A DNA stretch of 46,841 bases from a virus, in the IMG/VR virus record IMGVR_UViG_3300030117_007801, positions 1 to 46,841 of that record. One strand, written 5' to 3'. Every line of letters begins with the position of its first letter. The first letter of the stretch is position 1. The notes beneath the pieces are model-generated. The model made no database searches. It saw nothing but the letters and a program-made list of their open reading frames with translations, and was not told the DNA's origin. Positions 2,312 through 41,276 of this stretch are shown in pieces. The position numbers were made by a program, and so were the translations under genes.

Positions 2312-5300
2312 ATGGCAGATCAAACAACTCCAGTTTTAAAAATTTTAAGAGGCAACGTTGGCATAGGAACAGCAAGTCCTAGTTTTCAATTAACCGTAGT
2401 TGAAACAGGTGACTCCGTGAAAGCGGATTTCACTAATAATGTTAACGCTAATTTTAGAATAAAAACAAGTGGAACAGCTGCTCAAATTGGCCCATCAACT
2501 TCTAGTAATCTTGAGATTCAGACCGGAAATACTACCCGTTTAACTGTAGATTCATCTGGTAATATAGGTATAGGTACTACAAGTCCTGCTTCTTTATTAC
2601 ATTTATCTTCGTCTAGTAATCCAACTCTTACTTTAACGGACACAGGAACTAGCGGCAATAATACAACTGCTGGCATTATTCAGTTTCAAGCTTTAGATAG
2701 CGCGAGCAACAATGATACATTTGCACAGATTTACGGAAACGTCGATGTTTACACATCTACTGCAGAAGTTGGCCAATTAAATTTCAAAACAATGCAGTCA
2801 GGAACCATTTCTGATGCAATGGTTATTCAAGGATCTAATGTAGGCATAGGTACTGCAAGTCCAAATAGGAAATTAGATATAAGTGGAGCTACACAGAGTT
2901 GGGCTACAGCTCCTGCAATTCAGTTTACCTCTACAACAACAGCTGGCGCTAATGTTAGAAATTGGTGGGTAGGACCCGCTGACTCAACCTATGGTAATTT
3001 CCATATTTTTCCTAGCGCAACGCAAGGAGGTAACCCCGGAAGCAATTCGGAAGCAGCAAACGGAATTACAATAGATTATGTAGGTAAAGTAGGTATAGGT
3101 ACTACAAGTCCGGGTACTTTGCTTGAAGTAGCGGGTGTGATTAAATCCAGTTCTACATCTAGAGTTCAAGCTGATACGTATAACAACTCTGCAAATAGTG
3201 CAAATATCATTTATCGTTCTGGCACAAGCACGATTGTAGGTAATAACGCAAACGCTTTAGTTATCTTAGATGGTGGTAATGTAGGTATAGGCACTACAAG
3301 TCCCGACGCTAAATTGGAAATCAAAAGCGATGGCTCTGCAGCGGGTGGAGCTGAAATAAGACTTACTCACGCTAATAATAATAGCACTGATGTAGTTTCT
3401 ACTGTCAATTTCGCAAATAACGCTGGATCTGTAGCAATGATTCAAGGGGGAACGACGGGTGCGAATAATACTGGCTACATTTCATTCTTCACAGACAACG
3501 CTGGCACATCTTCAGAAAAGGTACGTATTATTGCTGATGGTAAAGTTGGTATAGGTACTACAAGTCCGGGTGCCACTCTAGATGTAAGAGGTGATGTCAG
3601 ATTAGATAGTGGAGGAAGTACCGATAGAACTATATATTTTAGAAATCAAAATTCTTCAACCACAGTAGGTGGAGCTATCAAAAGTGATCAATATCTTTCT
3701 CTGTGGGCTGGGAATGGATCAGGGACTCCCGCTCAGTATCTTACTATCAAACCTGCTGGCAATGTAGGTATAGGTACTACAAGTCCTTCTTATAAATTAA
3801 CTGTTACACCTTCAGATAATGACGGGATTCTTATTGACTCCTCTAGTGATTCACATACAGGTTATATTTATTTTGGAGACGCAACAAGCGATACTGTAGG
3901 TGCCATTTCTTACGATCATTACAGTAACGCTTTGCGTTTTAATGTTTCGAGCGCTGAAAAAATGCGTATTGATACAAATGGTAATGTTGGTATAGGTACT
4001 ACAACTCCCGGCACTTTGCTGCATGTGTATCAGAATTCTTCTTCTGCTTTGGAAGTATTATTTGAAAATGATGGTACTGGTCAAACTGGATTAACTTTAA
4101 GGTCAGATAGAAGTGCTGATGGTAACGTTGCTGGTTTTATTCACTTCGATGCTAATGATGACGCTGGAAACAACACTCGTTACGGCACTATTGAATCATT
4201 TATAGTTGATAATACTAATGCAACTGAAGATGGCCGTTTGACATTTAGTACTATGGTGGCAGGAACTGACACCGAAACAATGCATGTTACTGATGGTAAA
4301 GTTGGTATAGGTACTGCAAGTCCTCAACAAATCCTCTTTGTTCAGGCAGCTTCAAATGTTAATTTTGGAATTAGTAATAACTCAAGCGCGTTAAGAATCA
4401 ATGCGGTAAATGACGCAGCTGATACAAATGTTGCCATGGAGCTGACCGCAAGTAGCTATTCTTTCTTAGGTTCTGGAGCGGTGACCTTTAATAGCGCTTA
4501 TAGTTTTCCAACAGCTGATGGCTCATCTGGTCAAGTACTTACAACAGATGGTAGCGGTACTTTAAGTTTTAGTTCAGCTGGAACTGGTACAATATCAGGT
4601 TCTGGTACTGATAATTATATACCTCGTTTTAATGGTACTACTGCTTTAGAAAATTCTAATATTTATGATAATGGAACTAATATTGGTATAGGTTATACTT
4701 CTCCGACTGAAAAATTATTTGTTAAGCACGGTTCGGTTAATACTACAATAGCAAGATTTACTGGTGCTAATAACGATAGGGGATTAATTATAGGAACAGC
4801 AGTATCAGGTAGTACAAATGATTCTGTAATTACTTTTGATGCAGTGTCACAAAATAGCGTTGGCCAACACGCTTTTAAAACTGATGGTACTGAAAGAGTG
4901 AGAATTGACGAGAGTGGCAATGTTGGCATAGGTACTGCAAGTCCTTCCGCAAAACTTCAGGTTTCAGATCAAGCTCTTATTGATGGATTAACAATAGGTC
5001 GAGGCGGTGGAAGCGTATCTTCTAATACCGCTTTAGGAAGTTCAGCTTTAAATTCTAATACTACGGGGATTCACAATACAGCAGTTGGGTTAAGCGCATT
5101 AACTTCTAATACATCTGGTTGTCAAAACCTTGCGATAGGTAGTTGCGCTTTGTATACAAATACTACAGGTAGAAGAAATACGGGCAGTGGTGTTTATTCG
5201 CTGCGATACAATACTACCGGAATAATGAATTCTGGCTTTGGTTATGGTAGTCTGTTTTGTAATACAACTGGTGGTTATAATACAGCTTCTGGTTATAAAT

Positions 5301-8300
5301 CTTTATTTTGTAATACTACAGCAAGTAAAAATTCAGGCTACGGAACATATTCTTTATATAAAAATACTACTGGAGCTTGTAATTCTGCATCAGGTTATGG
5401 GGCTTTAACTTGTAACACTACAGGTACTGGCAATACTGCTAGCGGTTTTAAAGCTTTACAACGTAACACAACAGAAACAAAAAATACTGCTGTAGGTTTC
5501 TTTGCTTTACGCGAAGCTACGGGAGCTAGTGAAACAGTAGCTGTTGGTGGATGTTCTTTATATAATAATACTGGAACAGGTAATACCGCAGTAGGGTGGC
5601 AATCTTTATATACTAATACATCAGGAACTGAAAATGCAGCATTTGGAAATGCTGCGTTATACGGTAATACTACAGGTGATGATAATGTTGCAATGGGTTT
5701 TAAATCTTTATATTCTAACACTAGTGGTTCATTGAATACAGCTGTTGGTAAAGATGCGATGTTTAATAATACATCGGGTACAAAAAATACAGCTGTAGGT
5801 TTAAAAGCTTTACTTACAAATTCTACAGGCAGTAATATTACTGCTCTTGGATATCTAGCTTTATGCGTCAATACAGTAAGCGGAAATACAGCTGTTGGTG
5901 GTGAAGCGTTTTTAGCTAATACAACAGGTGATAAAAATGTTGGCATGGGGTATAAAGCTGGTAGATTTACTACTACAGGGTCTAGTAATACTGCTAGTGG
6001 TTATTATGCATTAAAAGTTAATACAACAGGCAATTCTAACGCAGCTTTTGGGTCGTGCGCTTTAGCTGCTAATACTACAGGTCGTAATAATACTGCTGTT
6101 GGTGGTAACAGTTTAAAAAGTAACACTTCAGGAACCTGTAGCACTGCTGTTGGTCACGCCGCCTTATCAAACAACACTACAGGTATTCGCAATAATGCGT
6201 TCGGGCTTCAAGCTTTATGCAGTAATACTACAGGTGGTTATAATCAAGCTTTTGGTATTTCAGCTCTAGCTAGTAATACTTCTTCTGTTTATAATTCAGC
6301 TTTTGGGCATTCAAGTTTATATGGTAATACTACAGGCGCTTCTAATTCTGCTTTTGGTTACAATTCGTTAAAATGTAATACCACAGGTAATTGTAACGTT
6401 GCTGTTGGTGCGTGTGGATTATGGAGCAATACTTCAGGTGAGAAAAATGTTGCTGTTGGTTTTAAGGCTTTATTCGCTAATACAACAGGCAGTTCTAACG
6501 CAGCTTTTGGGTCGTGCGCTTTACTCGCTAATACTACCGGTTCTCATAATGTAGCAGTTGGTTTGAGTTCCTTAGCTGCTAACACATCTGGGCAAAAAAA
6601 TGTTTCAGTAGGTAATTATAATTTTGCTAGTAACACTACAGGTAGTAATAATAGTAGTTTAGGTTATGCAGCTCTTATTAGCAATACCACGGCATCTAAT
6701 AATACTGGGGTTGGCATGTGTTCTTTGTATTCTAACACTACAGGAGATTGCAATACCGCGAATGGTGGTAACTCTTTGTTTACAAACACTACAGGTGTTC
6801 GCAATAACGCATTCGGATATCATGCTTTATATTATAATACAACAGGTGGTCATAATGTAGCTTTTGGTAATTCAGCTCTATTTACTAATACTACTGCTTC
6901 TTGTAATTCAGCTTTTGGGCATGGAGCTTTGTACGCTAACACTACAGGTTCTAATAATACCGCGAATGGTTATAACGCTTCAAAATGTAATACATCGGGT
7001 ACAAATAATACATCTTCAGGTTATCAAGCTTTATGTGCTAATACAACTGCTAGTTATAACGCTGCTTATGGTAGCCGCACTCTAAAAGATAATACAGGTT
7101 CTAATAATACCGCTAGTGGTGCTTACGCTCTCGCAAACAATTCAACCGCTGGTTATAACTCTGCTTTTGGTTCTAGTGCATTGAGAAACAATACTACAGG
7201 TTCTGGGTTAGCTGCTCTTGGGGCAAGTGCTTTATATGCTAATACAACAGGCGTTAATAATACTGCTGTAGGCGCCCAATCATTACAAAATAATACTTCA
7301 GGAACCTGTAATACTGCTGTTGGTCACTCCACCTTATTAAATAATACTTCAGGTAAAGAAAATGTTGCTGTTGGTTTTAGAGCTTTATGCGCTAATACAA
7401 CAGCTTGTCATAATAGCGCGTTTGGTACTGAAGCGTTAAAAGCAAATACAACGGGTAGTTATAATGCTGCATTTGGTGATAGCGCTTTAGATGCCAACAC
7501 CACGGGTGTACATAACCTCGCACTCGGCGGTGTAGCTTTATCTGGTAACACTATAGGTTCATGCAATACAGCTGTAGGTTACGGTAGTCAACAAGTTAGT
7601 ACAGAAGGCTCTAACAATGCATCTCTAGGTTTTAGAGCAATGAGATGTAATACTACAGGTGAACGTAATGTGGCGCTTGGGAGTCTAGCCTTATATAACA
7701 ATACAACAGCTGGTAATAATACAGCATCTGGCGCTTGTTCTTTATATACTAATACTACAGGTAGTAACAATGCGACGTTGGGTACCTACACATTAAAAAT
7801 GGCGACGACTGCAGTCAGAAATACTGCATTAGGTTACATATCTCAGACAGCTACTACCACGGGTAATAATAATACTAGTAGCGGTGCTTATAGTTTAAGA
7901 TATAACACAACAGGTACTGAAAACGCAGCGTTTGGCACCTATTCTTTATATTGTAATACAACAGGCGCTTGTAATGTTGCTGTTGGTTCGTGTGCATTAC
8001 GCAACAATACATCAGGAACTCGCAATGTAGCAGTTGGTTTTTGTACGTTAAAAGCTAATACTACTGGAGTATCAAATATAGCTTTTGGTGATAGAGCTCT
8101 TTCAGCCAATACTACAGGCTCCCATAATACTGCTTCTGGTTACCTTACTATGCGTGTGTCTACAACCGCAAGCACTAATGTAGCTATCGGTCAGCAAGCT
8201 TTATACGATTTAACAACTGGAAGTTGCAACATTGCATTAGGTAGCGCAGCTGGTTTATGGAACACAACTGGTAATTTTAATATTTTAATTGGTTTTAATG

Positions 8301-11300
8301 CGGGTAGAGGTACTGAAGATTCTACTACTTATAGTTCTACAGTTGCAGTAGGTTCGTACGCTTTAAATCAAAATACAACAGGAGCTAATAATGTTGCTAC
8401 CGGAAGATCGGCATTACAAAATAACACGACAGGAAATAATAATACTGCTAGCGGTACATATTCTTTATATAAAAATACTACAGCAATAGACAATGCTGCA
8501 TTTGGTTCTGCAGCATTACAAAATAACACTACAGGTAGTTATAATTCTGCTTTTGGCAGACAGAGTTTACACAGTAATACCACTAGTCATTACAATAGCG
8601 CTCTAGGTTATAAAGCTTTATACACTAATACTGGTTTAGGTAATACAGCTAGCGGTTTTTATTCTTTATGCGCTAATACAACTGGTAATTACAATACAGC
8701 AGTTGGTAAAGAGTCTCTACGTGGTAACACTAGTGGACTCCTAAACGTTGCTATTGGTAATAGATCTTTATTTGCTAATACCACGGGCTCTTGTAGCGTT
8801 GCGATGGGCTCTGCCGCATTAGAAAGCGCTACTACAGCTGTATGTAATACAGCAATAGGAACATCCAGTTTAATAAGTGATACTACAGGTCAATTAAATA
8901 CAGCATTAGGTGCTTTAGCTGGTTATGCTGTAACAACAGGAGGCAAAAATGTTGCTATTGGCGCGAGAACTTTGTGCTCTACTACTACAGGAGATTGTAA
9001 TGTTGCAATAGGAACTGATGCGTTTAGATTGAATACTACTGGTAGTTCTAATGTTGCAGTAGGTCAACTTGCTTTATACGCTACTACAAGCGGCACAAAA
9101 AATACAGCAGTTGGTGCTGAAAGTATGAAATGCAATACCAGCGGCATTAGAAACGTAGCTGTTGGAGTAATGGCTTTATACAACAATACTACTGCTACTG
9201 CTAACACAGCCAGTGGCGCTTATTCTTTATACAAAAATACTACGGGAACTGGTAATTCTGCATTTGGTTTTCAACTAATGTATTGCAATACAACTGGTAA
9301 TTACAATACAGTTACTGGTATGTACGCTTTATACAAAAATACTACTGGCTCTTATAATACTGCTAGTGGATATAATGCTTTATCATGTAATACTACTGCA
9401 TCTGGTAATACTGCAATGGGTCATGCCGCTTTGGCCGCTAACACTACTGGATACGGTAATGCTGCTTTTGGAAAAAACACTTTGTTAGTTAATACTACAG
9501 GTGCTGGTAATACTGCTTTTGGAGAAAATGCTTTAGATGCTAATACAACAGCTTCCAATAACGCAGCATTTGGTTATGTGACTCTCACTTCTAACACAAC
9601 AGGTACTTTAAATGCGGCTTTTCATCAAGGTTTAGTTAGTAATACAACTGGTTCTTGTAATTCAGCTTTTGGTTTTCAATCTTTATATAATAATACAACT
9701 GGAAATTATAACACTGCAACTGGTTTAAGAGCTTTATGCGATAATACAACAGGTGGATCTAGTACGGCGATGGGAACTCTTGCGTTAGCATCAAATACAA
9801 CGGGAGAAGCTAATAATGCTTTTGGCGCAAATTCATTAAAAACTAATACGACTGGCACACAAAATGTTGCTATGGGTGGTAACGCTCTTTGCGCCAACAC
9901 AACAGGTAATTATAATACAGCTGGTGGTTATCTAGCTTTATGCAGCAATACAACCGGAGAACGCAATACCGCTTTAGGCAGAACAACGTTGAAGGCTAAC
10001 ACAACTGGTAGTTTTAATAATGCATTTGGCATGTATGCTCTAGAGTTAAATACCACAGGCTCTTGTAATACTGCAGTAGGTTATTTTTCTTTATATGCTA
10101 ATACCGGTGGATGTCGAAACACTGCATCAGGTAACAGTTCTATGCAAGGAAACACTACTGGGTGGGAAAATACCGCTAGTGGTTTTTATTCATTGCGTTG
10201 TAATACGACTGGTTGTCATAATACGGTATTAGGTAGTTGCGCTATGTATAATAGTGAAACAGGCATATACAATACTGCGCTGGGCCATTCAGCATTAAAA
10301 TCCAATACTACTACTGATAATAATACAGCTATTGGCGCTTGCGCTTTATGCGGAAATTTACAGGATAGCAATGTAGCTGTTGGTATGAGCGCTGGTAAAG
10401 CTAACACTACAGGTAGCGTAGTTGCTGTAGGTAGAGATGCTTTACTATCTAACACTACAGGAGTTTCTAATACTGCAGTAGGTAAATTTGCCGCGCAATC
10501 AAATACATCAGGTATCAGAAACACAGCTGTAGGTGAATGTGCATTACAAAATACCACTACGGGTAGTGAAAACACCGCAATAGGTTTTCAAACTTTAAGA
10601 GTAAACACTACAGGTGGTTGCAATACCGGTATAGGCAACGAAGCTTTAGAGCTTAATACTACAGGGGTACAAAATACAGCTGTAGGTAGAACTGCTTTAT
10701 ATTCTAATACAAGTGGTAACTACAACACTGCAGTGGGAGCTCTTTCTCTACAAACCAACACAACAGGAAGCTGCAACATTGCATTAGGAAGAACTGCTTT
10801 GTATGCCAATACTACGGGATCTGGTAACGTTGCAGTAGGGCGCAGCACCATGCTTTGCAACACAAGTGGTATTCAAAACACAGCTGTAGGTCTTAACGCG
10901 TTAACCAATAATACAACAGGTCAACAAAACACTGCATCTGGCGCGTACGCTTTAGGTCTCCAGACTACTGGTAGCTATAATGTTGCAATGGGTCGTACAG
11001 CTATGTACGAAAATACAACCGGCTCTCACGGTAGCGCGTTTGGTTATGATGCTTTGAGATGCAATACAACAGGTGCGGGAAATACTGCCAGTGGTTATAT
11101 GGCTCTCAGAAGTAATACTACTGCGTCTTACAATAACGCTTTTGGTTGGAAAGCATTATGTGGTAATACTACTGGTAGCTATAATGTTGCAATGGGTCGT
11201 ACAGCTATGTACGCTAATACAACTGGAACTCATAATACTGCATCAGGTAATGAATCTTTAGCTTGTAATACTACTGGTTTTGGTAATACAGCCTCTGGTT

Positions 11301-13894
11301 ACAGAACTCTTTTTAATAATACTACCGGAGAAAGAAACACAGCTGTAGGTCATTTAGCAGCTGCTAATACCACATCTGGAAGATGGAACATAGCGGTTGG
11401 TGCTTGCTCTATTTATACTAACACTACGGGTAGTTATAATGTAGCCACTGGATATAGAAGCTTATTTTATAATACAGGGGGCTGTGAAAATACTGCATCT
11501 GGTTTATATGCTGGATTTGGCATTACAACAGGTGGCTGTAATGTTGCTATCGGAGCTAGATCTTTAGAATGTAATCAAACTAATAATCAAAATGTTGCTT
11601 TAGGTTTTCAATCTCTAAAAAATAACTTATCTTACGGTATGACCGCTGCTGGTGCTAACAGTTTGTACACTAATACTACTGGTACTTGCAGTGTTGCTTT
11701 TGGCGAAGCTGCTTTATATAAAAACACTACAGGTAACAATAATACAGCATTAGGTGTATACGCTCTTTTATGTAACACTACAGCTCCCGATAATACTTTT
11801 ATAGGTAGATGTGCTGGAGCTTTAATTACTACAGCAGGATATAATATAGGGGTCGGTGGTTCAACTTTAAAAGAAGTTACCACCGCAAATAACACTGCGG
11901 TTGGATTCGCAGCAATGCTATCTACTACTTCGGGTGGTGGTACTGCTATAGGTACTTATGCTTTATATGCAAACACAACAGGGGTAAGAAATACTGCTAG
12001 CGCTTATTATTCTTTAAGAGCTAATAGTACAGGAAGTGATAATGTTGCATATGGTCATATGAGCTTGAGGAATAATACAACTGCTGATAAAAATACAGCT
12101 TTAGGGACGTGCGCTTTATATACTGCTACTACGGCTCAACAAAATACAGCTGTCGGTAGAAATGCACTGTTTGCTACTACTACCGGTGGTTATAATAGCG
12201 CTGTAGGGGCAAGTGCTCTACAAAATAATACTACAGGTGCAGAAAATAATGCTATGGGTTGGGTCGCTTTATACGCTAATACTACTGGCTCTTATAGTAC
12301 CGCTAGTGGTCATTATGCTTTAGCTTGTAACACCACAGGTTATAAAAACGCTGCATTTGGTTATAAAGCTTTACTTAATAATACTACTAGTAACCATAAT
12401 TCTGGTTTTGGTAATCTTGCCGGACAAGGTACATCATCAGGTTGTTATAACGCTTTCTTTGGGTCATTTGCGGGTTGTGCAAATGGAACATCATGTCATG
12501 TTACTGCAATTGGTTTTCAATCTTTAAGGCATAATGCTAATACAGATAATAACACAGCTGTTGGCGCTTGCGCTTTATATACTAATACAACAGGCTCAAG
12601 AAATACTGCGTTAGGCGCGTCTGCTTTAAAGCTGAACTCGACTGGAAGCTGCCATGTCGCTGTAGGTCATGACGCTCTAGGGGTTAATACTAGTGGAATG
12701 GAAAACACTGCTGTTGGTCACAGGTCTATGTGCAAAAACACTACAGGGTCTTACAATGTTGCTGTTGGTTCAGAAGCTTTAGGTTGTAATACTAGTGGTA
12801 ATCGCAATACAGCAATAGGAAGAACTTCATTGCTTAAAACCACTACGGGTAGCCAGAATTCTGCTGTAGGCATGTATGCTGCTCTTTGTAATCAAACAGG
12901 AAGCGACAATGTTTCTATCGGTTATTTAGCTAATCGAACAGCAGCAACAGTTAGTAATAATACTGCAGTTGGCGCTTGCGCTCTGTGTAATAATACCACT
13001 GGTAATAATACAGCTCTAGGTTTATCTGCGCTTTTTAGCGCCACTACTGGTAATTACAATACATCACTTGGCACTCAATCTTCACTTTATACTACAACAG
13101 CTAGCAATAATGTAATTGTTGGTTTTCAGGCTGCAAAGAAGACAACTACAGGGGGAACAAATACAGTTGTTGGAAGTCAGGCCTTTATGGAAAATACTAC
13201 AGGGTCTAAGAATACTGCAAGTGGGTATAAAGCTTTAACTTCTAATACAACAGGTGAATGTAACATAGGTATGGGATTCTGTTCAGCGCCGAGTATTTCC
13301 ACTGGTGAGAAAAACATAGCAGTAGGTATTTGTTCAATGCGCCAACTTACAACAGGTAGCTGCAATACCCATTTAGGTCATGAGACATCATGTCTTAATT
13401 TAATAGCTCAAAATAATACTATAGCTGTAGGTTACCAAGCTACGACTTCAACTCAATCAGGAGACAACCATCATACTGTCTGGGGTAATAGCAGTAATAA
13501 TGTTTGTAATTGTGTACACAGTTCGTGGACTGTAGTTTCTGATTGTAGAGATAAAACAGATATTGCGCCATTAAATAATGGTTATGGTGTAAGTTTCATT
13601 AAGAAACTATCTCCTGTAAGTTACAAATGGGATAATAGAGAAACCTACGTAAGAGAATGTCAATGTACTTACGGTGAAAAAGATGGATCATTAAAATCTA
13701 AAAAATGTCACTATGGCTTTATTGCTCAAGACATAAAAACATCTTTAGAAGAACTAAATATTACATTTGATGCATTAGGTCATGATCCTAGTCAAGATGC
13801 TTACAGATTAACTTATGAAGAATTAATCGCTCCGCTAGTTAAAGCTGTTCAAGAACTCACAGAAAGAGTTGAAAATCTTGAAGCAGGTAATTAA
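2312..13894 (+). CDS. Giant beta-solenoid tail fibre with C-terminal peptidase S74 chaperone domain (3860 aa)
   Basis: Starts MADQTTPVLKILRGNVGIGT. Residues 1-~900 carry 11 motifs of the form GNVGIGTTSPxxxLxV spaced by beta-rich segments. Residues ~916-3711 are about 164 copies of a 17-residue unit, consensus NTTGxxNTAxGxxALxx, a pattern expected to form a stacked beta-roll like YadA-type heads. Residues ~3735-3860 are a peptidase S74 (endosialidase-type intramolecular chaperone) domain with SDCRDKTDI, YGFIAQDI and a terminal helix ending VQELTERVENLEAGN. S3743 and K3748 keep the Ser/+5 Lys spacing of the S74 self-cleavage dyad. Many repeats contain Cys, and nearly every repeat begins with an N-T-T or N-T-S sequon. 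The next genes are glycosyltransferases. Probably a trimeric receptor-binding or long side fibre. Frame and domains are seen; length, trimerisation and glycosylation are inferred. Confidence 0.9.
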   Translation: MADQTTPVLKILRGNVGIGTASPSFQLTVVETGDSVKADFTNNVNANFRIKTSGTAAQIGPSTSSNLEIQTGNTTRLTVDSSGNIGIGTTSPASLLHLSSSSNPTLTLTDTGTSGNNTTAGIIQFQALDSASNNDTFAQIYGNVDVYTSTAEVGQLNFKTMQSGTISDAMVIQGSNVGIGTASPNRKLDISGATQSWATAPAIQFTSTTTAGANVRNWWVGPADSTYGNFHIFPSATQGGNPGSNSEAANGITIDYVGKVGIGTTSPGTLLEVAGVIKSSSTSRVQADTYNNSANSANIIYRSGTSTIVGNNANALVILDGGNVGIGTTSPDAKLEIKSDGSAAGGAEIRLTHANNNSTDVVSTVNFANNAGSVAMIQGGTTGANNTGYISFFTDNAGTSSEKVRIIADGKVGIGTTSPGATLDVRGDVRLDSGGSTDRTIYFRNQNSSTTVGGAIKSDQYLSLWAGNGSGTPAQYLTIKPAGNVGIGTTSPSYKLTVTPSDNDGILIDSSSDSHTGYIYFGDATSDTVGAISYDHYSNALRFNVSSAEKMRIDTNGNVGIGTTTPGTLLHVYQNSSSALEVLFENDGTGQTGLTLRSDRSADGNVAGFIHFDANDDAGNNTRYGTIESFIVDNTNATEDGRLTFSTMVAGTDTETMHVTDGKVGIGTASPQQILFVQAASNVNFGISNNSSALRINAVNDAADTNVAMELTASSYSFLGSGAVTFNSAYSFPTADGSSGQVLTTDGSGTLSFSSAGTGTISGSGTDNYIPRFNGTTALENSNIYDNGTNIGIGYTSPTEKLFVKHGSVNTTIARFTGANNDRGLIIGTAVSGSTNDSVITFDAVSQNSVGQHAFKTDGTERVRIDESGNVGIGTASPSAKLQVSDQALIDGLTIGRGGGSVSSNTALGSSALNSNTTGIHNTAVGLSALTSNTSGCQNLAIGSCALYTNTTGRRNTGSGVYSLRYNTTGIMNSGFGYGSLFCNTTGGYNTASGYKSLFCNTTASKNSGYGTYSLYKNTTGACNSASGYGALTCNTTGTGNTASGFKALQRNTTETKNTAVGFFALREATGASETVAVGGCSLYNNTGTGNTAVGWQSLYTNTSGTENAAFGNAALYGNTTGDDNVAMGFKSLYSNTSGSLNTAVGKDAMFNNTSGTKNTAVGLKALLTNSTGSNITALGYLALCVNTVSGNTAVGGEAFLANTTGDKNVGMGYKAGRFTTTGSSNTASGYYALKVNTTGNSNAAFGSCALAANTTGRNNTAVGGNSLKSNTSGTCSTAVGHAALSNNTTGIRNNAFGLQALCSNTTGGYNQAFGISALASNTSSVYNSAFGHSSLYGNTTGASNSAFGYNSLKCNTTGNCNVAVGACGLWSNTSGEKNVAVGFKALFANTTGSSNAAFGSCALLANTTGSHNVAVGLSSLAANTSGQKNVSVGNYNFASNTTGSNNSSLGYAALISNTTASNNTGVGMCSLYSNTTGDCNTANGGNSLFTNTTGVRNNAFGYHALYYNTTGGHNVAFGNSALFTNTTASCNSAFGHGALYANTTGSNNTANGYNASKCNTSGTNNTSSGYQALCANTTASYNAAYGSRTLKDNTGSNNTASGAYALANNSTAGYNSAFGSSALRNNTTGSGLAALGASALYANTTGVNNTAVGAQSLQNNTSGTCNTAVGHSTLLNNTSGKENVAVGFRALCANTTACHNSAFGTEALKANTTGSYNAAFGDSALDANTTGVHNLALGGVALSGNTIGSCNTAVGYGSQQVSTEGSNNASLGFRAMRCNTTGERNVALGSLALYNNTTAGNNTASGACSLYTNTTGSNNATLGTYTLKMATTAVRNTALGYISQTATTTGNNNTSSGAYSLRYNTTGTENAAFGTYSLYCNTTGACNVAVGSCALRNNTSGTRNVAVGFCTLKANTTGVSNIAFGDRALSANTTGSHNTASGYLTMRVSTTASTNVAIGQQALYDLTTGSCNIALGSAAGLWNTTGNFNILIGFNAGRGTEDSTTYSSTVAVGSYALNQNTTGANNVATGRSALQNNTTGNNNTASGTYSLYKNTTAIDNAAFGSAALQNNTTGSYNSAFGRQSLHSNTTSHYNSALGYKALYTNTGLGNTASGFYSLCANTTGNYNTAVGKESLRGNTSGLLNVAIGNRSLFANTTGSCSVAMGSAALESATTAVCNTAIGTSSLISDTTGQLNTALGALAGYAVTTGGKNVAIGARTLCSTTTGDCNVAIGTDAFRLNTTGSSNVAVGQLALYATTSGTKNTAVGAESMKCNTSGIRNVAVGVMALYNNTTATANTASGAYSLYKNTTGTGNSAFGFQLMYCNTTGNYNTVTGMYALYKNTTGSYNTASGYNALSCNTTASGNTAMGHAALAANTTGYGNAAFGKNTLLVNTTGAGNTAFGENALDANTTASNNAAFGYVTLTSNTTGTLNAAFHQGLVSNTTGSCNSAFGFQSLYNNTTGNYNTATGLRALCDNTTGGSSTAMGTLALASNTTGEANNAFGANSLKTNTTGTQNVAMGGNALCANTTGNYNTAGGYLALCSNTTGERNTALGRTTLKANTTGSFNNAFGMYALELNTTGSCNTAVGYFSLYANTGGCRNTASGNSSMQGNTTGWENTASGFYSLRCNTTGCHNTVLGSCAMYNSETGIYNTALGHSALKSNTTTDNNTAIGACALCGNLQDSNVAVGMSAGKANTTGSVVAVGRDALLSNTTGVSNTAVGKFAAQSNTSGIRNTAVGECALQNTTTGSENTAIGFQTLRVNTTGGCNTGIGNEALELNTTGVQNTAVGRTALYSNTSGNYNTAVGALSLQTNTTGSCNIALGRTALYANTTGSGNVAVGRSTMLCNTSGIQNTAVGLNALTNNTTGQQNTASGAYALGLQTTGSYNVAMGRTAMYENTTGSHGSAFGYDALRCNTTGAGNTASGYMALRSNTTASYNNAFGWKALCGNTTGSYNVAMGRTAMYANTTGTHNTASGNESLACNTTGFGNTASGYRTLFNNTTGERNTAVGHLAAANTTSGRWNIAVGACSIYTNTTGSYNVATGYRSLFYNTGGCENTASGLYAGFGITTGGCNVAIGARSLECNQTNNQNVALGFQSLKNNLSYGMTAAGANSLYTNTTGTCSVAFGEAALYKNTTGNNNTALGVYALLCNTTAPDNTFIGRCAGALITTAGYNIGVGGSTLKEVTTANNTAVGFAAMLSTTSGGGTAIGTYALYANTTGVRNTASAYYSLRANSTGSDNVAYGHMSLRNNTTADKNTALGTCALYTATTAQQNTAVGRNALFATTTGGYNSAVGASALQNNTTGAENNAMGWVALYANTTGSYSTASGHYALACNTTGYKNAAFGYKALLNNTTSNHNSGFGNLAGQGTSSGCYNAFFGSFAGCANGTSCHVTAIGFQSLRHNANTDNNTAVGACALYTNTTGSRNTALGASALKLNSTGSCHVAVGHDALGVNTSGMENTAVGHRSMCKNTTGSYNVAVGSEALGCNTSGNRNTAIGRTSLLKTTTGSQNSAVGMYAALCNQTGSDNVSIGYLANRTAATVSNNTAVGACALCNNTTGNNTALGLSALFSATTGNYNTSLGTQSSLYTTTASNNVIVGFQAAKKTTTGGTNTVVGSQAFMENTTGSKNTASGYKALTSNTTGECNIGMGFCSAPSISTGEKNIAVGICSMRQLTTGSCNTHLGHETSCLNLIAQNNTIAVGYQATTSTQSGDNHHTVWGNSSNNVCNCVHSSWTVVSDCRDKTDIAPLNNGYGVSFIKKLSPVSYKWDNRETYVRECQCTYGEKDGSLKSKKCHYGFIAQDIKTSLEELNITFDALGHDPSQDAYRLTYEELIAPLVKAVQELTERVENLEAGN
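2351..4973 (+). repeat. Eleven GIGTxSP fibre motifs
   Basis: Motif G[NK]VGIGT[TA]SP followed by six residues ending LxV recurs 11 times in residues ~14-890, spaced roughly 70-100 residues apart. It is common in fibres of T4-like and marine phages. One copy departs to GIGYTSP. Similar motifs occur three times in the 592-aa protein at 30933 and once near 46485. Confidence 0.85.
5057..13443 (+). repeat. About 164 tandem 17-residue (51-bp) repeats, NTTGxxNTAxGxxALxx
   Basis: With N as position 1, N1 T2 T/S3 G4, N7 and G11 are nearly invariant and 14-15 is usually AL or SL. The span divided by 51 bp gives about 164 units; I did not count each one, and a few are shorter or altered. Cys recurs at positions 5, 6, 13 and 17. 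Synonymous codons are heavily mixed between units, so DNA identity is much lower than protein identity, unlike the neighbouring Gly-Ser-Ser tract. Confidence 0.9.
13514..13891 (+). other. Peptidase S74 / intramolecular chaperone domain of the giant fibre
   Basis: About 126 codons at the C-terminus. Seen: SDCRDKTDI (candidate nucleophile S3743, K3748), SPVSYKWD, YGFIAQDI and a helical tail. In the endosialidase family this domain trimerises the fibre and then cuts itself off just before the Ser, here releasing about 118 residues. An insertion with Cys residues (ECQC, KKCHYGF) precedes YGFIAQDI. Confidence 0.85.
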
Positions 13895-13902
13895 AATAAT
13901 TA

Positions 13903-14577
13903 GTGACAAAAATACTAGTTGGAACTCCTGCGCATGATGGTAGGCTAGACGTTTGGTATACAAATAGTTTAGTAAACACCGTCAAAATGTCTTTTGAAAA
14001 AGATGTTCGTGTTGATCCTATTTATACTAGTTTCGATAGTCTTATTCAAAGAGCTCGTAATTCTTTATTTAAAATTGCTGTTGAGGAAGATTATGATTAT
14101 TTATTCTTTATTGATAGCGATGTCGAGTGGGAGCCAGAGTGGTTTTACAGAATTATTGAATACCCAGAAGATATTGTCGGGGCGGCGCTTGTTAAAAAAT
14201 CAGATGATACAGAAGGTTACACTTGCAAGTTGCTAAATAAAAAATTAGAATTAAATGAAAGAAAAAATCTTGTTAAAGCAGACGCTGTGGGTACAGGGTT
14301 TTTAAAGTTTTCTAAAAAAGCTATTCACGCACTTTGGGATAACAGTCCAGAATATAAAAACGAAGAAAAAATGGATGATACTCCTGACAGGTTGGTTTGT
14401 AATGTAGAAATAAGAAATGGAATTTTAATTAGTGAGGATTATCTTTTATGCAAAAAAGCTAAAGATCTAGGTTTTGATTTATGGCTAGATCCAACAATAA
14501 CAATTAATCATATGGGGCCTAAAAAATTTATTGGTAATATTGATAAATTTTTGCAAAAACTTGGATACTATGTCTAA
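13903..14577 (+). CDS. GT-A-type glycosyltransferase (224 aa)
   Basis: A GTG start gives MTKILVGTPAHDG, the usual opening of phage GT2-like transferases; no in-frame ATG sits close by. SLIQRARNSL near residues 46-55 fits the nucleotide-sugar binding region. FFIDSDVEW contains a DxD-type metal motif at D71-S72-D73. GTGFLKFSKKAI and EDYLLCKKAKDLGFDLWLD match the acceptor side and late catalytic part of such enzymes. It follows the giant fibre by 8 bp and overlaps the next transferase by 8 bp, so the pair is probably co-translated. Substrate unknown. It may modify the virion fibre, phage DNA or host surface glycans. Family: fairly sure; target: inference. Confidence 0.75.
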   Translation: MTKILVGTPAHDGRLDVWYTNSLVNTVKMSFEKDVRVDPIYTSFDSLIQRARNSLFKIAVEEDYDYLFFIDSDVEWEPEWFYRIIEYPEDIVGAALVKKSDDTEGYTCKLLNKKLELNERKNLVKADAVGTGFLKFSKKAIHALWDNSPEYKNEEKMDDTPDRLVCNVEIRNGILISEDYLLCKKAKDLGFDLWLDPTITINHMGPKKFIGNIDKFLQKLGYYV

Positions 14578-15484
14578 TCCTGTTAAACCTCTAGGGGGTA
14601 CAGAGTTAATGTACAATGAGTTGAAGCGCAGAATCTCGCCCCAATACTTTCAAAAGTTTTCTATTTTTAATTACGCTTCTTACGCTGATTTTAATAAGCC
14701 AACTGTTTATTGGAATCAATTATCATACGACCAAGAAGCTGTTCAATTTCTGTTAGACCTTCAGCTTGTAGAAAAAATAAATTATTTTGTTTTTGTAAGT
14801 AATTGGCAAGCGGAAATTTTTCGTAAAATGTTTAACTTAAGAGGAGAGCAAATAAAAATTATGCGCAATGCGTGTTTGGGTGTTACTCCTGATTTAAATA
14901 AAAATAATAATAAATTAAAAATCTGTTATACATCCACACCTTGGCGGGGTTTAAATGTATTATTAAGAGCATGGGAGCTATTGAGACCAGCTGATTGTGA
15001 GCTCCACATCTTTTCTAGCACAAAAATATATGGGCAGCAGTTTGATCAGTCTAGCGGAAATCAATATGACTATTTGTATGAAAAATGCAATTGTTTAAAC
15101 AATGTTGTTTATAGGGGTATGACTGATAACGCTTTATTAAGAAGTGAATTATCTTCATTTGATATTTTAGCTTATCCTAGTACTTTCGAAGAGACTTCGT
15201 GTATATCAGTAATCGATGCGCTTAGCGCTGGTTTAAAAGTAGCTTGCTCTAATGCTGGCGCACTTCCTGAAACGACTGAAGGGTGGGCCGAAATGTATTC
15301 TTTCGTTCAAGATAATGAAAAACATGCGCAAGTTTTTGCGTCTGTATTATCTAAAGTTATATCAAAATATAAACGCGGAGATTATAAACAAGATTTAATT
15401 GATCAAGTAAATACTTATGGATCAAGATGGACATGGGATAAAAGAGAAAAAGAGTGGGTACATTTTTTAAACGCAATTCAATAA
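14570..15484 (+). CDS. GT-B-type glycosyltransferase, GT4-like (304 aa)
   Basis: I chose ATG 14570 (MSNPVKPLGGTELMY), which overlaps the previous stop as ATGTCTAA; a longer frame from 14531 would add residues that only read through the upstream gene. KPLGGTELMY matches the N-terminal glycine-rich donor loop. YTSTPWRGLNVLLRAWELL and YPSTFEETSCISVIDALSAG match the C-terminal GT4 nucleotide-sugar site. The second acidic residue of the E-x7-E motif is Asp (E208, D216), a conservative change. A tail helix (TWDKREKEWVHFL) ends the protein. With the upstream GT-A enzyme it forms a two-gene cassette directly after the repeat fibre. Donor and acceptor unknown. Confidence 0.75.
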   Translation: MSNPVKPLGGTELMYNELKRRISPQYFQKFSIFNYASYADFNKPTVYWNQLSYDQEAVQFLLDLQLVEKINYFVFVSNWQAEIFRKMFNLRGEQIKIMRNACLGVTPDLNKNNNKLKICYTSTPWRGLNVLLRAWELLRPADCELHIFSSTKIYGQQFDQSSGNQYDYLYEKCNCLNNVVYRGMTDNALLRSELSSFDILAYPSTFEETSCISVIDALSAGLKVACSNAGALPETTEGWAEMYSFVQDNEKHAQVFASVLSKVISKYKRGDYKQDLIDQVNTYGSRWTWDKREKEWVHFLNAIQ

Positions 15485-17339: not shown

Positions 17340-18737
17340 TCAGTCTAACTTGCCAGCTCCTAATTTAAAGAACCCGCTAGTAATTGAATCTAATGAATCT
17401 TTATAATTTCCTGACATGAACACACCGTTTACTGTATCGTTAGCTCCACCAACCTGAACAGTGTAAGTTAAGTCAACACTTTGGTTATCTCCAATAGCTT
17501 CTGAATAAGTTTCAGATTGAAGAATAGCTCCTTTAATTGTGTATTGCATTTTAGGTTTAGGAGTGGTTGCGTTACTATCATTAAGAGTTAAGGTGAAATT
17601 ATTCTTTTGGTTTTCAGCCATAATGTCGAATAGATTAGCCTCTCTCAATTCTGCAACAACTGCACTTATTGTTAAATCAAAGTTAATTGGAACATCCACA
17701 ACTCTAGTATATCCAAAAACACTTCCTAATCTTTGAAGAACTGTTCTGGATAAAGGTATCGAGAAGCTGAATGATTGAATATGCGCTTGATTTGCACCAC
17801 TAATAGCAACAAAACCATCACCTTCAGGAAAACTTAAGGTAATATCTCCGGGCCTTAAGGCGCTAATTAAACTGTTTCCAGTAGTGAAACCAGTGAAGTT
17901 AACTCCCATCGCAGTAGCAACAGCATTGCTTCCTTGAAAATGTCTGCTTTGGTCTAATTTGTATGATTTTCCTATAGCAGTGAATTTTTCAGCAGGAGTA
18001 TTAAATAGATTAACTGCGGGACTATTGCCGCTAATAAAAGAGTTATCTATGCCGCTCAAAGCAGCACCATTGCTAAACGCATTAGTTTTACTTGCAGCGG
18101 TAAATGTGTCAGTTTTAATATTGAAAGCTTCTACAGTAACTGAAGCTGTTGGAAGACCTCCGACTGATGCTTCAAAAGAGTAATCAGTGATAAAGCCATT
18201 ACCTATTGCGACAACGTTTGAGTTTCCTACTAAAACATCTGAACCAACTACGTCTTCACCTTCGTCAACCGTTAAGATGTAGTAATTATTTCCTTGAAGA
18301 TCAGATAGAAGGCCTGAAATAGATTGGGCGTTAGGAGCGGTTTCAGTGTCAATCGATGTACCACCGGGAGCTTGACCATCTAGTACTCCAGTGACATTAA
18401 AACCTAATAATCTTTCATTAAATCCATCAGTTACATAGTAACTGAAATCCAAACCTACAGTAGGAGGTTCATTAATGATAGAATCAATACGAGCTAACTT
18501 GCCAAATTCATTAACATCTTGTCGATTAATTGTAAAGTTAAAATTACAATTTTGAACACGATCTAATTTCTTTAACAAAGAAATACCTGACCCTAAAGAT
18601 CCAGTGCTTACTGGTCCGAAAGGAGCAGATGTTATAGGGCCTGACCCTGCTGCTTCTACCCCGCTAACTTGAGCGCCGGTAGCGCTAGGGGCGATGAATA
18701 AAGCTTGACTTTGGTATATTACACGATTTCTTGCCAT
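17340..18737 (-). CDS. Major tail (tube) protein, lambda V-like position (465 aa)
   Basis: Starts MARNRVIYQSQALFIAP. NFNFTINRQDVNEFGKLARI and PPTVGLDFSYYVTDGFNE near residues 67-112 match an N-terminal signature I recognise from major tail proteins of uncultured siphophages. GFITDYSFEASVGGLPTASV and HIQSFSFSIPLSRTVLQRLG recur in altered form in the proteins at 30023 and 32712, so the family is paralogous here. The C-terminal half ends in beta-rich tube-like sequence. It is last of a four-gene minus-strand block and occupies the place of lambda V after Z and U. A 62-bp leader with a poly-A run may carry its own promoter, as suits a highly expressed protein. Confidence 0.7.
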   Translation of the reverse strand: MARNRVIYQSQALFIAPSATGAQVSGVEAAGSGPITSAPFGPVSTGSLGSGISLLKKLDRVQNCNFNFTINRQDVNEFGKLARIDSIINEPPTVGLDFSYYVTDGFNERLLGFNVTGVLDGQAPGGTSIDTETAPNAQSISGLLSDLQGNNYYILTVDEGEDVVGSDVLVGNSNVVAIGNGFITDYSFEASVGGLPTASVTVEAFNIKTDTFTAASKTNAFSNGAALSGIDNSFISGNSPAVNLFNTPAEKFTAIGKSYKLDQSRHFQGSNAVATAMGVNFTGFTTGNSLISALRPGDITLSFPEGDGFVAISGANQAHIQSFSFSIPLSRTVLQRLGSVFGYTRVVDVPINFDLTISAVVAELREANLFDIMAENQKNNFTLTLNDSNATTPKPKMQYTIKGAILQSETYSEAIGDNQSVDLTYTVQVGGANDTVNGVFMSGNYKDSLDSITSGFFKLGAGKLD

Positions 18738-18799
18738 AATATTTTTTTTTGTTTTAAATTGTTATCTTTATTTACAGTTTTTCGTTTATTTTGTGAAAT
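18738..18799 (-). promoter_or_regulatory. Leader before the tail tube gene
   Basis: The only gap in the minus-strand block. Read on the minus strand it has ACTGTAA (one base off AGTGTAA) 34 nt before the ATG, then aaagataac and a nine-A run. Candidate internal promoter or leader for the tube gene. No Shine-Dalgarno sequence is seen. Confidence 0.3.
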
Positions 18800-19660
18800 T
18801 TATAATCTTGGATATCTAAATGCTTTTATTTCAAAATCAACAAAACCTATATTTAGTTCTGGATTTAATTCTTTTATGTTGTTATCTCTTATCTTGGAGG
18901 TGTCTACGTCGGAAATAAAAAGAATATTTGAAGCGTTGGCCGCTTTTACGTTTTCATAATCGTATCCCGTAGGGTATACTCCACTTTTTACAGCTCCAAA
19001 TTCTCCAATTGGATGAGAGCTTGTTGATACTTTGGCTATAATTTCATTAAAAGAATCAGTAAAAGTACTTAAAATACCATCTAATTGATATAAGTTTTCA
19101 CAAAAAGCGACTATTTTAACTTGAGAAGTGGTTTCGTCTTCTCCTCCAAAAGAAAAAGGTTTGTTAGAAGATTCTTCCATGGACGCAAAAACAGCTGGCG
19201 TGACTGGGGTGTAGGGTTTTATGTAATCTTCTGAAACAGTAAATCTACTATTTGTTATATATTTATTTTCAATTATTAGTTTTTCTTCTGTTTGATCAGT
19301 GATATAGCTATTTATTTCTTTTACTGTATAAGTTCCAGAAATATCTAATCCAGTATTCACGCCACTATTAAAAATAACTCTACCGTTATCAAAATCAAAC
19401 TGCATACCGCTTGTTCCTGTTGCAAGAAATGTGCCGTCTACTGTTACTCCGCTGGGCACTGTTACGCCTGTTATGCTATTGTCATAAGCAAACTGTTTGT
19501 ATGGAGATCCATAAACTACTTTGCTGCCGCCTAATCTTTCGTCTGTATAATTGTAAAATTTTGTTGTATAAGTTTTGTAAGCATCGACTTTTTTCATTAG
19601 AAAATTATCGAACCACAAAAAGAAGCTATTCATTACATCATGAGAAAATGTTGATTTCAT
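18800..19660 (-). CDS. Putative tail terminator / tail completion protein, U-like position (286 aa)
   Basis: Starts MKSTFSHDVMNSFFLWFDNF, a helix, followed by a beta-rich middle with GVTVPSGVTVDGTFLATG. The C-terminal ~110 residues (QVKIVAFCENLYQLDGILSTF to NIGFVDFEIKAFRYPRL) look like an alternating alpha-beta domain and would suit a terminator fold. It overlaps the Z-like gene by ATGA. The position between Z-like and V-like genes is that of lambda U, but it is about twice U's length. I see no decisive motif, so the role rests on gene order. Confidence 0.5.
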   Translation of the reverse strand: MKSTFSHDVMNSFFLWFDNFLMKKVDAYKTYTTKFYNYTDERLGGSKVVYGSPYKQFAYDNSITGVTVPSGVTVDGTFLATGTSGMQFDFDNGRVIFNSGVNTGLDISGTYTVKEINSYITDQTEEKLIIENKYITNSRFTVSEDYIKPYTPVTPAVFASMEESSNKPFSFGGEDETTSQVKIVAFCENLYQLDGILSTFTDSFNEIIAKVSTSSHPIGEFGAVKSGVYPTGYDYENVKAANASNILFISDVDTSKIRDNNIKELNPELNIGFVDFEIKAFRYPRL

Positions 19661-20241
19661 AATTGTTTTCTATTTAAGTCTCTAAACTTTTTTTCGTATT
19701 TGTTAATTAAAGCTGATATATATTGAGTGTTTTGAAATTTTAAACCGCCTCTAACTCTTCGTTTGCTTTGAATACCAAATCCAGATCTACTAACACTCTT
19801 CTTTTTTAAGTAAAATCCTAAACCTGATATGCCTCTTTCAATTCCTTTGGCCCAACTTCTTCCATTTGCCCAAGGCATAGGTGTTGCTAAAAATATCATC
19901 TTAGCGGTGGGTATTTCAAAAGTTGCTGTTGCTAAAGATCTGCCACCGCTTGATATTCTGAAAGTTGATTTTTCTAGCAATTGTCTAATTGGATCTATAG
20001 GTCTTGATCCAGCATCAAAACCTATAAAAGAAAACAAATTAGTTACTCCACTTAGAGTGTTGGACAGATTAGGAGCTGTTACGCCAAGTTCTATTTCTTG
20101 AGTGATAGGGTGAGCGTTAAACTCTTCAATCATTTCTTGTTTTATTTTTTCAAATTCTTTTCTTATCAATGAATTTCTTTTTGAAACGTATTTCTTATCA
20201 CTCTCTAAACTTTTAAAAAGCTTTGAAAATGGTTTACTCAT
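19657..20241 (-). CDS. Putative tail completion protein, Z / HK97 gp10-like (194 aa)
   Basis: Basic, helix-rich N-terminus (SLIRKEFEKIKQEMIEEFNAHP), then LGVTAPNLSNTLSGVTNLFSFIGF and a Gly/Arg-rich second half (RSWAKGIERGISGLGFYLKKKS). The 'helix, target helix, G-rich basic strand' pattern fits HK97 gp10-like neck proteins such as lambda Z. It lies 1 bp after the FII-like stop and overlaps the U-like start by ATGA. Together FII-Z-U-V keeps lambda order although the whole block is inverted. Confidence 0.5.
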   Translation of the reverse strand: MSKPFSKLFKSLESDKKYVSKRNSLIRKEFEKIKQEMIEEFNAHPITQEIELGVTAPNLSNTLSGVTNLFSFIGFDAGSRPIDPIRQLLEKSTFRISSGGRSLATATFEIPTAKMIFLATPMPWANGRSWAKGIERGISGLGFYLKKKSVSRSGFGIQSKRRVRGGLKFQNTQYISALINKYEKKFRDLNRKQL

Positions 20242-20242
20242 A

Positions 20243-20698
20243 TTATGAATCTGGTTTTAGGTATAATGTGTAGTATTTATTATCAAATAAACCATGAGGT
20301 CTAAACGATGAATTTAGAACGTATCTTTTACCATCTACATCAAACCTTTTAGCATCTTTTATGTAATCATAATCCTCTGCTGAAATTTTCAATCTTACTG
20401 TTCCTACAATTGCATCAACTTTAATTTGAGACTGCATATTTGCATCTGACCAATATCTTTTTCCAATATCGTCTTCATATTGTATTCTTGCTTTAAAAGT
20501 CTTATAAACTGGTGTATTTACATATGAAGTGGCACCTTCTCCAGTGTCGTAAAGTGGATTAAAGTTAGGATCAGTTATAATAACAACTTTCGAAGCTTCT
20601 TTATAAACAGTAATATTTCGAGCAAAAGTCTCATGAATATCATCTATTACTGAATTCAATGCGGCTCTTTCTGATGTTGAAATTAAGCTTGTCGCCAT
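20243..20698 (-). CDS. Putative head-tail stopper, FII-like position (151 aa)
   Basis: First gene of the minus-strand block. An N-terminal helix (TSERAALNSVIDDIHETFARN) is followed by a beta-barrel-like run: VYKTFKARIQYEDDIGKRYW, GTVRLKISAEDYDYI, KRFDVDGKRYVLNSSFRPHG. The last part resembles the 'F.vdG..Y.v....p.g' end of small joining proteins (FII, SPP1 gp16). The leader carries AGTGTAA 8 nt before ATG. Role inferred from size, beta content and order. Confidence 0.5.
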   Translation of the reverse strand: MATSLISTSERAALNSVIDDIHETFARNITVYKEASKVVIITDPNFNPLYDTGEGATSYVNTPVYKTFKARIQYEDDIGKRYWSDANMQSQIKVDAIVGTVRLKISAEDYDYIKDAKRFDVDGKRYVLNSSFRPHGLFDNKYYTLYLKPDS

Positions 20699-22610: not shown

Positions 22611-25600
22611 ATGGCGATTCAGGTAGATGTATCAGCTAATCAAAGAGCTTTAATTGATTCTATAAACAGAGGTGTAAACGCTTATAACAAAAGGTTTGCT
22701 AAGTCTAATAGTATAGATTTAAAAATAAATGAGCGCTCTTTTACTCAACCTTTAGGAAGAATTACGGGTTCTGTCGATGATTTTGGAGCCGCTATGGCAG
22801 CTTCTAATGCCCGTGTTATAGCGTTCGGTGCATCTACAGCTGTTTTGGGTACTGCTGTTGCTGGCTTTAGATCTTTAGCTAAAGCTACTATTGAGGTAGA
22901 AAAGAATTTGACTGATGTTAATCGTATTTTACAGCTATCTACTTCAGATCTTCAAACTTTTGGAAAAGAGTTATTTAATATTAGCAAAAGAACAGCTACT
23001 TCTTTTAACGACGCTTCTAAAGCGTTGCTTGAATTTTCTCGTCAAGGTTTAGATGCTGCAGAAACATTGAGAAGAACTAATGATGCATTAACTCTAACTC
23101 GTTTGGCTGGATTAGGAGCAGAAGCTTCTGTTGCAGCTTTAACCGCTACAGTTAATGGTTTTTCTAAAAGTGGTCTTACCACTACACAAGTTTTAAATAA
23201 ATTAGTTGCAGTAGAACAGTCTTTTGCTGTTAGCGCAAGAGACTTATCTGAAGGTCTAGCTCGTACTGGTCAAGCAGCTCAAGAAGCTGGAATTAATATA
23301 GATCAATTAAACGCTTTAATTTCTGCAGCACAACAAAGAACTGCTAGAGGTGGTGCTGTTATTGGTAACGCTTTAAAAACAATTTTTACTCGTTTACAAC
23401 GTAGCGATACTCTCGATAGGTTGGAAGAGTTTAATATTGCAGTTAGAGACGTTCAAGGAAATACTTTACCTGCAGCTGCGGTTTTGCAAAATTTTGCAAA
23501 CGCTTACGATAGATTAGCTGACGCTCAAAGATCGCAATTATCTGAACAGGTTGCTGGTGTTTATCAGGTTAATATTTTAAAAGCTATTATAAGTGATTTA
23601 AACTCTGAACAGAGTGTTTATACTGCAGCTTTAGAAAAAGGAGCTAGAGCTTCTAACGAAGCAGAAAGAGCTAACGCTCAATTGAATCAAAGTTTATCAG
23701 CTCTTTTAACTCAATTAGGAAATAACACTCAACAACTTGCTTCTCAAATAGGTAGCGTTACGTTTGATCCTTTAGCCAAAAGCGCCGCAAAAGCTGCGAA
23801 TTCAATTTTAGAAACATTTACAGATTTATTAACTGGAGAAGGTTTTGGCAGTGATCTTGCTAACGGGCTACTAAAAGGTATTAGAAATGTTTTAGGTGGT
23901 CCGGGCGCTGTCGCCGCTTTTTATACTTTATTTAAATTAGTTCAAAATTCTTTTACGTATGTTGCGCAAGCTTTACCACAGTTAGCTGGCATAACAACTG
24001 AAACTCAAAAAAGACAAAATTTAGAACAAGCTATTTTGAGTATTTTGCAGCAAGAAAGTCAAGTGCAAAAAGCTTTAATAGGTTCTACTGGAAATCAAAA
24101 GAGACAAGCAGAAATTTTATTAGGTGTCGCAAGGCAACAAACAGCTGAGTACGTAAAACAAAAAAGTATAGCTGCAAGCTTAAGTGGTGTATTGAGAGCT
24201 CAAGGAGTCACAATCGGAGCTAGAGGTTTGCAGGCAGGAAATCCTAAAACTAGAAGCGGAGGTTATATACCACCATCCGCTAGAAAAGCAGAAAAAGCTG
24301 GAGCTTTAGCTGGAGGCTACACTCCCGGCGCAGTTGTTAATTCTCCTGTAGGAGGAGTAATGAACACTGCTGAAAACGTTAAATATATTCCGGGTTTTGC
24401 GCAACCTTTTATTAATCCACCTAAACAATCTAGAGCTGGAAGATTGCATAAAATAAATGCATTAAGGGAAGTCGGAGTTGATCCTTACCAGTATGGAGGG
24501 TTCGTTCCTAATTTCGCAAAATCCCAAAAAGCTGTTAATTTTCAAAGAGGAAGAAGTTTTGAGCAGGTAGTTGGTAATATGATTGGAGTCGCGCCAAAAT
24601 ATAACGCTCCTATAGATTATGAAAAAGTCATTAAAGGTAGAATACCGAGGAGTAAAAAAATTGGTTTTGATCTAAGCATGTATAAACGGGGAGCTTACGC
24701 TGACGCTCATGTTGGGCTTGGGCATAATAGTGCTCAGATTATATCTAAAATATTAAACCATCATGCGAATGATAAGCAAGGTTTAGATATATTTGAACAA
24801 GATGGTAAAATACTTTTAGGGTCTAATTTTGTAGAAATAATTGGAAAAGGCGCTGATATCAGGGGCCAGATAAAAACTTCCAAGTACGGCAGTTTAAATG
24901 CTACTGCTAAAAATAATTATAGTGAATACGAAGGTCAGACATTTAGAACCGCTTTTGATAAAGATAAAGTAAATATTCCTAATTTTGCAGCAGCTTACAG
25001 AAATGTTTTTACAGGCGAGTTAAATAATTCAGCTATAGCGAGAGGTTTAAGATCTGGGGCTCTTACTTCACAGCAAGCTAGTGCTATGGGGTATAGAACT
25101 TCTGGTTCAAAAATAAGTGACAGAAAAGCTAAAAGAGCAGCATCAGTTAACGCTTTAAATTATACTATGGCTTATGTTCCATGGGATGTTGAAAAATTTA
25201 GAGGAGGAAGAAGTGGCGGCAGGTTAAATATAGCTCAAGGAGATGCTTACGAAAAATATGTTTTAGGTTTAATTAGTAGTGGTAGATTGAAAGGTACAAG
25301 TGCATTAGGTCAACCTTTTTCTCTTGGGGCTAGGCCAGATGTGCGCAGTAATGAGGGATTAAAAGGGGGAAGAAATGCTCGTATAGATGGTTATTCTTTA
25401 TCTGCTGGAGAAATGTACGAAATAAAATCTGGAGATTTAGGTGCTAGTTTAGCTGGGGTTCAAACTAAGTTTATAAAAGCGTTAGAAAATAATCCTCAAA
25501 CACTTAACCCCGAAAGAAAATGGAAAAATTTTGTTTTCAGAACGACCGCTGCTAAAGGAAGAGGCGCTAGTGGTGGATTTATTCCTAATCTTGCTTATAA

Positions 25601-41269: not shown

Positions 41270-41276
41270 TTAAATT

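Follow-up and report, generated by a model that had tools for sequence, protein, structure and literature searches.

A 165-unit array of seventeen-residue repeats in a giant S74 fiber of an uncultivated virus

What kind of protein is encoded by a viral gene in which a single seventeen-residue pattern recurs over 2797 amino acids, and what might so long a run be for? The gene lies in a complete 46,841-base IMG/VR record, an uncultivated viral contig that we analyzed over its whole length (hereafter the window). It occupies 2312–13894 on the plus strand, exactly the single 3860-aa open reading frame (ORF) named in a preliminary description of this DNA. We located the repeat units with an iterated position weight matrix (PWM) that allowed no overlaps. 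The PWM scored 156 units in the ORF, and 145 of the 155 spacings between neighbors were exactly 17 residues, confirming the continuous run described earlier. Seven of the irregular spacings were 33 residues and two were 32, each hiding one shortened unit of 15–16 residues, and one spacing of 20 marks a 3-residue insertion within the array. Counting the nine shortened units brings the total to 165, in line with the earlier estimate of about 164; the boundaries first given for the run (5057–13443) had to be moved, as the array starts one unit earlier and its last clear unit ends at 13396, with 13397–13443 degenerate. The array thus occupies 5006–13396 on the plus strand, or 164.5 unit lengths.

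The consensus of the array unit is NTTGSxNTAxGxxALxx. Among the 156 scored units, G11 is retained in 155, N7 in 143, and T2 in 140, and the strongly conserved columns hold 2.9–4.3 bits of information, compared with 0.5–0.9 bits at positions 5, 6, 12, 13, 16, and 17. The array is hydrophobic at L15 and at position 10 (V, F, or L), contains 0.07% proline, and is basic (pI 8.9). Where shortened units could be read, the missing residues fall within the turn segment TTGxx. Shuffling the window yielded no seventeen-residue runs, and a six-unit T/G pattern with 80 matches in the real sequence had none in 100 dinucleotide shuffles, so the repeat run is far from chance.

The protein as a whole is a modular S74 fiber in which 11 GIGT modules are followed by the array and then by a C-terminal S74 autochaperone. 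The N-terminal region (aa 1–898; 2312–5005, plus strand) contains 11 VGIGT..P...L motifs, has a pI of 4.7, and matches crystal structures of Bdellovibrio MAT fiber tips (best 8ond, E 2.5e-10; also 8oml and 8ojn). Such tips are trimeric and beta-helical and carry S74 chaperones, and a motif of the GIGT kind forms a capping loop of S74 fibers (PMC10769870). At the other end, a Peptidase_S74 autochaperone domain lies at 13538–13756 (plus strand; aa 3743–3815), where PF13884 matched with 37.3 bits (E 3.4e-9; Pfam cut-off 22). The match begins with SDCRDK at aa 3743, an intact copy of the SDxxxK motif given as the catalytic cleavage motif of S74 fibers (PMC10769870). Both features bear out the earlier assignment to the S74 fiber type. 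The predicted cleavage serine is S3743, and the mature chain left after self-cleavage would be 3742 aa long (378 kDa). Over many repeats and the C-terminus, the protein also matched PHROGs 23837, 6002, and 4636 with 1636, 1233, and 1203 bits.

Judging from profile matches of the neighboring genes, the fiber gene sits in a siphovirus tail region. A tape measure protein of 2469 aa is encoded at 22611–30020 (plus strand; PHROG 4211, E 2.7e-45), and a lambda-type tail tip module at 33560–44666 (plus strand) comprises genes for a minor tail protein (33560) and for L-like (38222), I-like (40721), and J-like (41277) proteins, assigned with Pfam and PHROGs. The giant fiber was absent from L051–L053, the relatives of the J-like protein, but these relatives are fragments. 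Directly upstream of the fiber gene, an ORF cut by the contig start (2–2284, plus strand) encodes at least 760 aa of a collagen-like (GSS)n tail fiber with a GSSGSSG repeat, matching PHROG tail fiber and collagen-like minor tail families. Four opposite-strand ORFs (465, 286, 194, and 151 aa) lie inside the tail region at 17340–20698 (minus strand); none of the four matched a PHROG, and neither of the two tested matched Pfam.

Directly after the fiber gene, at 13903–15484, are GT2 and GT group 1 glycosyltransferase genes. A GT2 match just downstream of an S74 match on the same strand also occurs in two other array contigs (G028:C1:16359-18157 and G015:C1:49-1028). We considered glycosylation of the fiber by such adjacent enzymes and rejected it: despite an N-x-S/T triplet in 121 units of the array, GT2 passed its cut-off in just 4 of 34 array-bearing contigs. 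Because GT2 is rare among these contigs, a structural role explains the triplet better.

At the DNA level the units have little in common, as the preliminary description had noted: mean identity between units is 53% (44% for protein). Where two units share a residue, they share its codon at a frequency of 0.48, compared with 0.46 expected from codon usage, and when codons were permuted within column and residue, sharing at lags 1–6 and 8 was neither clearly raised nor clearly lowered (z between −1.7 and 0.6, with 0.4 at lag 1). Synonymous sites in the array are saturated and the core pattern is conserved, which together argue for purifying selection on an old array, in agreement with the earlier view that selection keeps the protein pattern. 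The companion idea, that the mixed codons serve to avoid recombination, did not hold up. Selection against recombination would require codon sharing below random, random sharing was observed, and the array contains long exact repeats. The longest, of 46 nt, occurs at 10964 and 11168 (plus strand; span 10964–11213), four units apart, and the second, of 31 nt, recurs nine units apart; both are longer than any repeat in 60 synonymous shuffles, where the maximum was 28, and indicate occasional past exchange or duplication of segments. Most other sampled arrays of the repeat are likewise saturated at synonymous sites, with a recently homogenized minority (L118, L135, L242, L196, and L103). One of these, L196, belongs to a Ca. 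Thorarchaeota MAG (Asgard archaeal, contig assignment as filed) and has at least 56 units of the same seventeen-residue array with a 125-nt exact repeat.

We modeled 12 units (204 residues) with AlphaFold2 from an alignment with 81 gap-free relatives. The model had a mean pLDDT of 67.6 and a pTM of 0.68 and placed short strands at positions 8–10 and 16–17 in most units, disturbed mid-stretch; a single-sequence model of the array reached a pLDDT of 60.8. A PDB sequence search with the array matched no chain, and Foldseek with the array model found no relative in the PDB. Against BFVD, Foldseek matched 36 predicted structures of viral proteins (E ≤ 0.001), including S74 proteins of phages and of giant viruses, and several superposed at about 1 Å over 100 residues. 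These matches are suggestive, though not proof, of a two-strand solenoid common to the family of seventeen-residue-repeat arrays. For the beta-solenoid proposed at the outset, the periodic strands are favorable, but the model confidence is moderate and the PDB offers no match. The rise measured in the YadA-type beta-roll of BpaC is 4.8 Å per coil (PMC9543794). Provided that one unit is one coil, 164.5 × 0.48 nm would give a rod of about 79 nm, and the earlier value near 78 nm is reasonable on the same proviso.

For comparison, we gathered arrays by protein similarity and with an 11-unit DNA pattern from viral contigs and one-per-species prokaryote genomes. At least 283 loci gave at least 269 runs of five or more scored units in viral and bacterial contigs, with a median of about 24–25 units; the 99th percentile of array length among the matches listed was 75 unit lengths. 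The window array, at about 165, is the longest among the matches listed, exceeding any other about 1.4-fold and those of other viruses 1.8-fold in a comparison in which some viral arrays end at contig ends; the extreme length suspected earlier is thus real within this sample. Next among these matches are a Bacteroidetes MAG array of 112 scored units (119.5 lengths, 2631 aa) and a Nomurabacteria MAG array of 111 units. The next-longest viral array among them, L010, has 83 units (91 lengths), so the window array raises the sampled viral maximum for the repeat, otherwise about 91 unit lengths, to about 165. Of 34 viral contigs with an array, 26 also have S74 above its cut-off, for the most part in a reading frame as long as the array ORF, which makes an array combined with S74 the normal design. 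Pfam and NCBIfam contain no model for the seventeen-residue repeat; matches of array members to their LbH_EIF2B, DUF1720, and methyltransferase models were scattered and weak, as expected of a repetitive query, and we set them aside. A literature search, mainly of openly accessible papers, found no description of the repeat.

The array is also rich in cysteine, at 2.9% compared with 0% in the preceding 898 residues and 0–1.3% in the other contig proteins tested. The 77 cysteines in the 156 scored units occur only at positions 5, 6, 13, 16, and 17, which are among the most variable. Among the matches listed, 18 of 163 viral arrays and 0 of 102 cellular arrays of at least 10 units exceed 2.5% cysteine, cellular arrays reaching at most 1.3%; by simple proportion, with kinship ignored, the probability of this split is about 1.6e-4. 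The Cys-rich viral arrays include that of the window (5006–13396), L118, L103, L153, L039, and L074, with cysteine mainly at variable positions. A disulfide ladder was considered and discarded: neither this array nor 18 other Cys-rich ones had an excess of cysteine pairs within units or at lags 1–3, so intrachain pairing of neighbors is not under selection. Stray cysteines are avoided by exported bacterial surface proteins, and phage fibers fold in the cytoplasm; this difference provides a plain reading of the virus-only cysteine. That the presumed outward cysteines (about 230 per presumed trimer) serve a virus-only function, such as forming oxidative cross-links or binding metal along the shaft once the fiber is outside the cell, seems to us improbable.

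The explanation we favor, with a probability of about 0.72 for the whole, is that the giant protein is a homotrimeric tail fiber or spike of a lambda-like siphovirus, with the array as a solenoid spacer. The C-terminal S74 domain would nucleate trimerization and then cleave itself off, and the GIGT modules would form MAT-like beta-structured segments. The array would stack as a parallel beta-solenoid with two strands per turn and one unit per coil, N1, T2, T3, G4, N7, A9, G11, A14, and L15 supplying the core and turns while positions 5, 6, 12, 13, 16, and 17 would face outward and drift. In the virion, the resulting stiff spacer of about 79 nm would hold the binding end at a distance from the tail. 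The array itself is old, its length changing occasionally through duplication or exchange of segments. This explanation is supported by the S74 match with its SDxxxK motif, the co-occurrence of S74 with arrays in 26 of 34 contigs, the MAT-tip matches, the modeled strands, the BFVD matches, the column conservation, the loss of residues from the turn segment in shortened units, and the lambda-type tail genes. It is weakened by the moderate pLDDT, the missing fold relative in the PDB, and a contig without a close relative that carries the fiber gene.

Other readings account for parts of the same evidence. The shaft itself might be adhesive, the variable outward positions of 165 coils forming a multivalent surface for host or environmental polysaccharide; the wide variety at those positions, the basic pI, and the occurrence of the same repeats in bacterial proteins agree with this. 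However, no surface motif is repeated, the six positions seem to drift without constraint and do not look like a conserved site, and S74 fibers normally bind through a domain beside the chaperone, so we regard an adhesive shaft as unlikely. The low-complexity composition, the moderate pLDDT, and the absence of PDB matches could also point to a flexible, disordered linker rich in Asn, Thr, and Ser in place of a solenoid. Such a linker is hard to reconcile with a strict seventeen-residue phase, near-invariant G11 and N7, hydrophobic residues at positions 10 and 15, scarce proline, and periodic strands in the model, and we give it little credence. Even less can be said for an assembly artifact. 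Repeats commonly break metagenome assembly and this contig is from an uncultivated virus, but the longest exact repeat in the array (46 nt, the next being 31 nt) is shorter than ordinary short reads, which leaves the units distinguishable, and the reading frame runs uninterrupted to a correct S74 domain at its end; an artifact is hardly credible.

The spacer explanation can also accommodate a different source for the length. The array is far longer than the sampled median and could reflect neutral drift instead of a selected spacer length, with unequal exchange growing and shrinking arrays and this phage at the long end. In favor of this are the two exact repeats above all shuffles, the wide range of lengths elsewhere among the matches listed (about 25 units at the median and 75 unit lengths at the 99th percentile), and the recent homogenization of L118, L135, L242, and L196. 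Most units, however, are synonymously saturated and show no added similarity to their neighbors, so the greater part of the length is old and has persisted with no frameshift or stop codon; we consider a neutral origin of the length possible but doubtful. A rigid spacer remains the most likely role of the array.

What is new here is the length, the virus-only Cys-rich subset, which is a small further question, and the fact that a repeat this common has no entry in Pfam, NCBIfam, or the PDB. It is found in phages and giant viruses as well as in bacteria and an archaeal MAG, yet it has no Pfam model or solved structure, and one structure of a 10–15-unit fragment would provide annotation for a large number of proteins. 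The window array is a handy test piece, with units that can be told apart by their DNA and flanking modules that have solved relatives.

Set beside known systems, the repeat has several kinds of kin. Bacterial and archaeal MAG genes (Bacteroidetes, Ca. Nomurabacteria, Thorarchaeota, and others) have the same unit consensus, with up to 120 lengths per ORF among the matches listed, but the cellular arrays are Cys-poor, unlike that of the window. Among solved structures, the YadA-type beta-roll comes closest in concept, with a short unit rich in Asn, Thr, Gly, and Ala, one unit proposed per coil, and a 4.8 Å rise (BpaC; PMC9543794). We do not claim membership for the window array, because the YadA-type unit has 14 residues rather than 17 and the Pfam YadA-head profile neither matched the giant fiber nor was among the 25 commonest families matched by 82 aligned stretches. 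The Bdellovibrio MAT fibers (PMC10769870) share with the window fiber the GIGT capping-loop motif and an S74 domain with SDxxxK, and the solved MAT structures have no match to the array itself. MAT fibers also have a signal peptide and a conserved N-terminal beta domain of about 130 aa, which would be unexpected in a phage protein. No close homolog of the giant fiber was found, the best showing 50% identity over 305 aa. The nearest likeness is to S74 (endosialidase-chaperone) fibers with seventeen-residue repeats (PHROGs 23837, 6002, and 4636), which have the same repeat and the same order of array then S74 in tailed phages. Examples are gp55 of Methylophilales phage Venkman and fibers of pelagiphages HTVC111P and HTVC112P, roseophages CRP-1 and CRP-7, and cyanophages P-SSM2 and P-SSM5. 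Venkman gp55 has 28 scored units, compared with about 165 in the window fiber, which is therefore a fiber of an already known kind, of record length among the matches listed and otherwise typical.
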